Positions 34,801-37,800 of a stretch of 64,000 nucleotides of DNA are shown one piece after another. The position numbers and the translations under genes were made by a program. Position 1 is the first letter of the stretch, and each line of letters begins with the position of its first letter. The DNA lies in contig JAOTOL010001562.1 of assembly GCA_034440575.1 (NCBI GenBank), positions 434,001 through 498,000 of the forward strand. The letters are read 5' to 3'. The DNA comes from Imbricaverruca yamaguchii. Taxonomy: Eukaryota; Arthropoda; Thecostraca; Neoverrucidae. The notes below the pieces were generated by a model, which worked only from the letters and a program-made list of their open reading frames with translations, was not told the origin of the DNA and did not search any database.

Positions 34801-37800
34801 TCTGTCATGCCAAGGAGGGACAAATGATGTCAGAATGTTGGTCTCAGCTTTTTATTTCTACTGGTTACTGGTTCGAATCCATATAGGCAGTAATCGCAGC
34901 ATTTCTAATTTAAATTACACCTTTATACACTACAATTACCCATGGGCCTAGAGGCATCAGTTGCAACGAGCACACGCGGAATTAGCGCTATTCATCCTTG
35001 GGATATCAGGTCTATCATATGACCTGACTGAGCCTCAGGGTATGGCTGCACATAAGCGCTCGTGTCACCCTAGCAAGCCACCCTCACCCGACCGATGTTT
35101 GAGTGCAGTGTGGGTGAGCACTCCAGTACATAATGTGGTGGTGGCACTCCGGAGTGACGATGGTTCGCGTGCTGCCAGGTGCGCAAGGAGGACTGGGTGG
35201 CGCGTATCCAGTACGCCACGCTGTACCTCATCTTCATCGCCACCGCCTACGTCACCAAGTGAGTCGGCCCGGTCGTCGGCAGCTACACCGGTACCGATGT
35301 TGTGGTGTTTACGCTGTACGACGGCGCCAGCTATAGTGTGAGATCTGGTGTTGGCCTCCATGGGTTCTGATTGTGCGTCGGGTTCATGTTGGTTTTCATG
35401 TACAAATTTACTTTCAAGTTATTATTTTCAATTTCTTCTTTTCAGTACACAAGCTTACCAGCTTATCATGTTGGTATGCTTGAGCACGACACCAGTTGAA
35501 CCAGTCATAATGTTTGCTATTCTGCCTTTGGCACTTGCGTTAGTTGAAGTCACGAACGTAATTCGGCTAAAGTGATTTGCGCGGCGTGGGTTGGAGAGGT
35601 GATGCATGTGGTAGTTGTGATCATACCAAGAATTGTAGGGTCAGCAGTAGCACCATATGGCGCCATGTTAAGCTTTGAAGACATTAGTGCAAATCAACAT
35701 TAGCAGTGCAGATGCTTCTCCAACGTACACAAAGCGTCACCCTTGGTGACATGTTGATGTGGTGCGATGCTGCATTACAATATGCCCGGCGGCTGACGTG
35801 CCTTCCGATGTGAGACGTAACGTTCATAGAAGCGGTAGAATTGACAGCCCATGTTCTGACTACCTTGAGAATCGCCCCCGCCCCTCGTAAGCCAAAATGT
35901 AGTGTTATTAAGAGCGATGATTGTATACGGTGTTCCAAAGTGTATGCCAGTGTTCTGTAAATAAGGAAAGGTCCCATTGTATCAGACATCTCTGGTTTGG
36001 GTTAATGCATATAAACTTCGAAGTAGCACAATTTCCCCCATAATAATAGTAAGTATTTTACATTATTTTCAACAGATTTGGCTCCACCCATTGTTCTCAG
36101 CTGAACAACATATATTGCATCGTAAGGCCATTTGTAAGGAAAGAAAATACATACGTTCCCTTCTAGGTGTTTTTTTTTCAGCGGAGCAGTTGCTCTGTGG
36201 TTCCCGGCCATTTCATTCTGGTTTCAACTGTCTGGTTTCCACAGCCTTACTCGGGTGGCGCTGGTGCTGATGGTTATCCACTACACGGTGGAGGCCGTGG
36301 TGCACGCCTCCCGCCTTCTGCACTTCGCTGATAAGACCGAGCTGGCGTCGAAGGGTGAGTGGGTGATGAACCTCGTGACCGAACAGTCCGCTGATAAGAC
36401 CGAGATGGCGTCGAAGGGTGAGTGGGTGGTGAACCTCGTGACCGAACAATCCGTTGACAAGACCGAGCTGGCGTCGAAGGGTGAGTGGGTGGTGACCCTC
36501 GTGACCGGACAGTCCGCTGACAAGACCGAGCTGGCGTCGAAGGGTGAGTGGGTGATGAACCTCGTGACCGAACAGTCCGCTGACAAGACCGAGCTGGCGT
36601 CGAAGGGTGAGTGGGTGGTGACCCTCGTGACCGAACAGTCCGCTGATAAGACCGAGATGGCGTCGAAGGGTGAGTGGGTGGTGACCCTCGTGACCGAACA
36701 GTCCGCTGATAAGACCGAGATGGCGTCGAAGGGTGAGTGGGTGGTGACCCTCGTGACCGGACAGTCCGCTGACAAGACCGAGATGGCGTCGAAGGGTGAG
36801 TGGGTGAGTGACCACTCGATGACCGGACAGTCCGCTGACAAGACCGAGATGGCGTCGAAGGGTGAGTGGGTGATGAACCTGATGACCGGACAGTCCGCTG
36901 GCAAGACCGAGATGGCGTCGAAGGGTGAGTGGGTGGTGACCCTCGTGGCCGGACAGTCCGCTGGCAAGACCGAGATGGCGTCGAAGGGTGAGTGGGTGAT
37001 GAACCTCATGACCGGACAGTCCGCTGGCAAGACCGAGCTGGCGTCGAAGGGTGAGTGGGTGGTGACCCTCATGACCGGACAGTCCGCTGATAAGACCGAA
37101 CTGGCGTCGAAGGGTGAGTGGGTGATGAACCTCATGACCGGACAGTCCGCTGGCAAGACCGAGCTGGCGTCGAAGGGTGATGAACCTCATGACCGGACAG
37201 TCCGCTGACAAGACCGAGATGGCGTCGAAGGGTGAGTGGGTGATGAACCTGATGACCGGACAGTCCGCTGACAAGACCGAGATGGCGTCGAAGGGTGAGT
37301 GGGTGATGAACCTGATGACCGGACAGTCCGCTGGCAAGACCGAGATGGCGTCGAAGGGTGAGTGGGTGGTGACCCTCGTGGCCGGACAGTCCGCTGGCAA
37401 GACCGAGATGGCGTCGAAGGGTGAGTGGGTGATGAACCTCATGACCGGACAGTCCGCTGGCAAGACCGAGCTGGCGTCGAAGGGTGATGAACCTCATGAC
37501 CGGACAGTCCGCTGACAAGACCGAGATGGCGTCGAAGGGTGAGTGGGTGGTGACCCTCGTGGCGTTACTCTCGTCAGCCTTAGGTGAGCAGTCGTCAGTC
37601 GCCAGGTCACTCTTGTGATTGGCAAGCTGCTGCAGTGTTGAGGAAGAGGTTTTCGTCGTGCAGTTTTTCTGACTGCTTCATCTGATCTAAATATTAGCGA
37701 TGTATAAAGCCTGCAATTGTGTGTTGTAGTTTGTCCCCTTTTGGTCGCTTGCTTACTTAGGCCGGGCAGGTTTGTTGTAGCTGGCGACTGCTTGATATAT

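Follow-up and report, generated by a model that had tools for sequence, protein, structure and literature searches.

The end of exon 6 of a TRAM gene and the adjoining 5′ splice site are reiterated in a tandem array in the barnacle Imbricaverruca yamaguchii, within a window that comprises the whole stretch of 64,000 nucleotides analyzed here (assembly GCA_034440575.1, contig JAOTOL010001562.1, positions 434,001 to 498,000). Judging from its sequence, this 63-bp array most likely (with a probability of about 0.85) represents a minisatellite of the type termed mirage in amphioxus, in which the first donor would be used, the further copies would be inert intron, and the in-frame period would be coincidental. 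Coordinates refer to the window and, unless noted, to its forward (+) strand; a slash marks the exon-intron boundary.

The 63-bp Array at the End of TRAM Exon 6

The array extends from 36326 to 37561, as delimited by Tandem Repeats Finder (TRF; period 63, 19.8 copies, 91% matches) and by unit dissection, and it exceeds chance. A script located GTCGAAGGGTGA 20 times head-to-tail, which yields as many candidate donors between 36355 and 37539; GTCGAAGG/GTGA is kept in 20 of 20 copies, and the TRAM exon 6 array of 20 exon-end/donor junctions reported in the preliminary description is thereby confirmed. The dinucleotide GT is present in all 20 donors and the full site GTGAGTGGG in 18 of them. Each unit consists of 28 exonic and 35 intronic bp, following an exon model that rests on homology, and thus spans the boundary.

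Donors are spaced 63 bp apart except for 66 bp after donor 8 and 55 bp after donors 14 and 19. A placement of the donors at 36355 + n x 63, as originally proposed, therefore holds for donors 1–8; donors 9–14 lie 3 bp further downstream (unit 8 measures 66 bp), and the later donors shift again. In units 14 and 19, an 8-bp deletion breaks the frame and turns GTGAGT into GTGATG, so that donor 14 is weakened; the resulting 55-bp stretch between donors 14 and 15 (37177..37231), recognized by unit dissection, recurs as an identical unit at donor 37484. The 16 intact 63-bp units (units 8, 14, 19, and 20 were left out of the comparison) differ at 12 variable positions and have a mean pairwise identity of 0.930. 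Groups of identical units (9=15=16, 10=17, 11=18, and, among the shortened units, 14=19) indicate block duplication, and concerted evolution is seen within the cluster. The donor core lies inside a 23-bp run without variable sites; the chance that a run of this length occurs anywhere is 0.038.

TRAM Gene Model and Consequences of Donor Choice

TRAM is a protein-export helper. Its exons were modeled from homology and splice consensus; eight exons joined at consensus splice sites yield an unbroken protein that matches the Pfam family TRAM_LAG1_CLN8 (E 2.5e-32), and with the addition of a ninth exon, located at 44884, the TRAM protein of 378 amino acids is complete. With splicing at the first donor, exon 6 (36245..36354; splice consensus and protein homology) measures 110 nt and is entered in phase 2 and left in phase 1; exons 7 and 8 occupy 38625..38769 and 42511..42665, respectively.

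When donors 1–14 are joined in silico to 38625, the products are full-length TRAM proteins with lengths between 378 and 652 amino acids; the in-phase donors 2–14 (36418..37185, with the weakened donor 14 as the last) account for products of 399 to 652 amino acids in steps of 21, with one step of 22. Reading through from exon 6, the first in-frame stop is a TGA (37206..37208), and donors 15–20, which lie behind it, lead to a truncated product of 535 amino acids. The phase 1 register of donors 1–14 and the open frame up to 37206 had been recognized correctly; the further claim that each unit adds 21 residues without breaking the protein is accurate for donors 1–14, apart from the one step of 22, and fails for donors 15–20 with their truncated, 535-residue product.

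Donor 1 (AGG/GTGAGTGGG, 36355..36363) is the probable functional donor, since the protein that it specifies carries no insert when set against its three closest relatives, from the barnacles Pollicipes pollicipes (88% identity) and Amphibalanus amphitrite (87%) and from P0003 (83%), in all three of which an insert at the exon 6/7 junction is absent. A search for insert-bearing proteins returned none up to E 10 among 8000 candidates, a weak result since the known barnacle TRAMs were likewise unlisted and the collection may lack this species. The Pollicipes orthologue was modeled with AlphaFold (30 sequences, mean pLDDT 73.6, pTM 0.70). The insertion point corresponds to its residues G252/F253, located seven residues into the helix 246–281 that follows a three-residue turn (243–245); the model thus places the insertion within a helix and not in a long loop, where the earlier assignment was to a loop of the TLC domain. 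Since every unit closes with an exon-end copy, the start of this helix would be re-supplied by the last unit of an insert.

Coding Potential of the Array

The 12 variable sites are split 4/4/4 over the first, second, and third codon positions, and the residue is altered at 8 of the 12; codon constraint was therefore not found in the added coding units. The three antisense frames over the array contain just 1 to 3 stops each. An antisense stop-to-stop frame of 426 amino acids (36213-37493, minus strand) covers most of the array and is most likely a by-product of array composition.

The open frame of the array is not beyond chance. In random intron DNA of this window, a 12-codon intronic stretch is open with a probability of 0.563, and for 11 of the 14 modeled donors in the window the next 35 nt are open in the same register. 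An open unit in frame is unremarkable, since a period divisible by three (assumed to have a chance of 1 in 3) combined with this openness gives a probability of about 0.19, which is paid once and then copied. Weak hints of constraint come from the 23-bp invariant run (P 0.038) and from unit 8, whose net gain of 3 bp keeps the frame.

Other Junction Arrays in the Window

Three further arrays in the window have one of their ends at an exon junction, namely at the donor of TRAM exon 7, the acceptor of TRAM exon 8, and a donor of SRRT (ARS2); junction arrays thus occur at 5′ and at 3′ junctions and in two genes. Their unit lengths are 22, 53, and 25/37 bp, none of them divisible by three. In the degenerate 22-bp array (38765..38979; TRF, with the start set by eye), the exon 7 donor GTCAG/GTAAGC is reiterated; the TRF rows cover 38800-38841 (score 70) and 38833-38979, GTCAG copies follow from the exon 7 end onward at distances of mostly 22–25 bp, and the core match is 16/20. 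The 53-bp array (39301..42516; TRF row 39358-42516 and an adjoining row from 39301) reiterates the exon 8 acceptor in about 60 copies, the last of which is the genuine acceptor (core match 19/20); among 61 cores, 39 read CAT and have lost the AG, and 22, the genuine acceptor included, read CAG.

The partial SRRT protein aligns with the chains 8pmp_D and 6f7j_B of “Serrate RNA effector molecule homolog” (PDB sequence search, E 1.3e-109). The exon concerned (6846..7034; protein alignment) ends with GCCGAGGAGACCGACAAGCAG/GTGAGC, and its end and donor are reiterated in a 25/37-bp array (7013..8060; TRF) with 21 intact donors. The protein is preserved with the first of these alone: the phase is wrong at donors 2 and 3, and all donors from the fourth on, 6 of which are in phase, lie downstream of an in-frame stop at 7098. 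SRRT is a conserved gene; since its secondary donors would break the protein, splicing must presumably be able to skip such copies.

Minisatellites with units of 27 bp (1-558) and 31 bp (4986-5968) are unlinked to any known junction; upstream of 6846 no SRRT exon was recognized by eye, and a junction link of these two arrays may exist. Behind the SRRT exon at 9493-9663, a candidate two-copy donor duplication was noticed (CAAG/GTAGGC at 9664 and again 27 bp on); it was dismissed, as a 14/20 match at 27 bp is within chance.

Association of Arrays With Splice Junctions

Positional association was examined for 28 junctions from the homology-based exons of two genes and for an array list compiled from 62 TRF rows. 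The list retains periods of 20-100 and scores of at least 120, unites rows that overlap, and omits low-scoring rows and microsatellites of short period; list and thresholds were chosen after the data had been seen. Judged by whether a 20-bp junction core is found again at 16/20 or better within the adjacent 1.5 kb, junctions are not enriched inside arrays (4/28, compared to 199/1500 random positions), and this null result counts against the mirage interpretation. Among the 1288 random positions outside the listed arrays, 15 have such a recurring core.

The ends of the arrays give a different picture. With strict TRF bounds (start of the 22-bp array at 38833), 3 of the 9 arrays have an end no more than 35 bp away from a junction; the null mean is 0.27 (P 0.0015), or 0.48 (P 0.0085) if arrays are relocated to GC-rich flanks. 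When the row of score 70 is merged (start at 38800), the count rises to 4 of 9, which was reached in 0 of 4000 relocations (P 0.001 with GC-rich flanks); in a separate run with these bounds, P was 0.00025, or 0.0005 with GC-rich flanks. The start set by eye (38765) was matched by 0 of 4000 relocations as well (0.00025 with GC-rich flanks). With the threshold widened to 60 bp, the P values are 0.00025 and 0.00225; at 10 bp only 1 of 9 arrays qualifies (P 0.07 and 0.13). In a run with 8 arrays, 4 were near junctions, a count reached by 0 of 20000 relocations, and for 6 arrays confined to the gene span the observed count was reached by 2 of 20000. Relocated arrays thus have ends at junctions less often than the actual ones; as this excess comes from one window, with bounds and thresholds set afterwards, it is a post hoc lead and not a result.

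Origin, Donor Choice, and Alternative Explanations

The 63-bp array probably originated by a chance tandem duplication across the exon 6/intron 6 junction, followed by amplification and partial homogenization; the mean identity of 93% and the groups of identical units show that both have taken place. Each duplication would leave the exon edge with an exon-plus-donor copy still intact, and the extra copies would accumulate as intron; because a complete copy remains at this edge, the gene would stay functional and the first donor would still be spliced. The same duplication process probably operated at the three other junctions in the window, and the multiple-of-three period of the TRAM array is probably a coincidence.

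Exon definition is the likely reason why the first of many identical donors should prevail. In HeLa minigenes with flanking introns of 365 nt, the upstream member of an identical donor pair was used exclusively under exon definition, as stated in the accessible text of PMC9225289. TRAM introns 5 and 6 measure 986 and 2270 nt, and donor 1, which defines the shortest exon (110 nt), is accordingly the predicted choice if barnacle cells follow the exon definition rule known from human data, as they presumably do; analogous reasoning predicts that exon 8 is spliced at its exon-adjacent acceptor. A preference for the intron-proximal donor across short introns, attributed to Reed and Maniatis in the same portion of PMC9225289, would here select the last, frame-breaking donors and would count against the use of donor 1. 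Minor use of donors 2–14 may occur. The array at TRAM exon 6, in which 18 strong donors are identical, constitutes a natural experiment on the choice among such donors by an animal spliceosome.

The preliminary description had proposed a different outcome, in which the donors are used alternatively and the length of TRAM changes in 21-residue steps, both among the proteins of one animal and from animal to animal. The donors lend themselves to such a ladder, as donors 1–14 share one phase and lead to full-length products, donors 2–13 have the 9-nt site of donor 1, and each unit ends with an exon-end copy that would keep both flanks of an insert near-native. Yet the even 4/4/4 distribution of variable sites bears no mark of codon constraint, the antisense frames are nearly as open, and the sister arrays are out of frame, with units not divisible by three; on these grounds a protein-length ladder was rejected as the main reading. 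The insert-free sequences of the three closest relatives, the normal splicing reported for amphioxus mirages in the available parts of the source papers, and, weakly, the empty insert search argue in the same direction, and protein-length variation of this kind is very unlikely. Overall, the earlier interpretation is partly supported.

Still less probable is a role of the array in the RNA that does not involve splicing at its donors, where many U1 sites would hold U1 snRNP and shield the intron from early 3′-end cleavage or tune exon 6 splicing, and where use of donors 15–20 would produce a truncated, perhaps decay-prone RNA. The conservation of GTGAGTGGG in 18 of 20 donors and the invariant 23 bp around the donor (P 0.038) would fit such a role, but recent block duplication accounts for the identity of the copies, the AG has been lost in 39 of 61 copies of the exon 8 array, and the exon 7 array is degenerate. 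The least probable explanation is an assembly artifact, either a misassembled shorter array or a combination of two alleles; barnacle genomes can be extremely heterozygous, as the consulted section of PMC8270832 reports for Balanus improvisus, but the units vary at 12 positions as well as in length and show an ordered history, and three other junction arrays share the window. A mirage-type minisatellite with inert downstream copies is therefore preferred over these alternatives. A broader extension of this reading is speculative and rather unlikely: barnacle minisatellites might be born preferentially at junctions, as in amphioxus, as a recurrent, animal-wide by-product of a DNA process linked to splice sites, and the few arrays in frame, such as that of TRAM exon 6, could become expressed length ladders.

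Comparison With Amphioxus Mirages and Other Repeats

In the literature on mirages and on minisatellites at exon-intron junctions, as far as it is openly available (subscription papers were mostly outside this scope), no arthropod case was found. Junction arrays are not mentioned in the accessible portions of the barnacle genome papers PMC8270832, PMC8917513, and PMC8416341, and the excerpts of a study on intronic minisatellites in earthworm metallothionein genes describe no junction array (PMC12783039). Mirages in an arthropod are possibly new.

The mirages of amphioxus duplicate exon-intron boundaries in the manner of minisatellites and are described for Adh3, the globin genes BflGb6 and BflGb9, and TnC, and similar duplications occur in PGBD5; they are found at either boundary, donor or acceptor, their lengths differ between haplotypes, and RT-PCR suggests that they leave splicing undisturbed (PMC3087553 and PMC3902484, in the sections available). 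The barnacle arrays match the structural features of mirages: repeats that span the boundary, on the donor or acceptor side, with many intact AG or GT copies, homogenization, and several genes per genome. The hosts differ, a cephalochordate there and a barnacle here, as do the copy numbers, with 3 to 6 copies given for BflGb6 in the same sections, in contrast to 20 and about 60 in the barnacle arrays; the period of 63 bp in TRAM happens to be in frame. Tandemly duplicated splice signals are also shared with the Rogers model of intron gain by AG/GT proto-splice-site duplication (cited in the accessible part of PMC3087553), whereas no new intron is evident in the barnacle genes, where the copies lengthen an existing one. 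Ordinary intronic minisatellites share the length, turnover, and homogenization of these arrays, but a TRAM unit begins within the exon and carries exon bases together with an intact splice site. The presence of four junction arrays, spread over two genes in a single arthropod window, suggests that mirages are more than an oddity of amphioxus.
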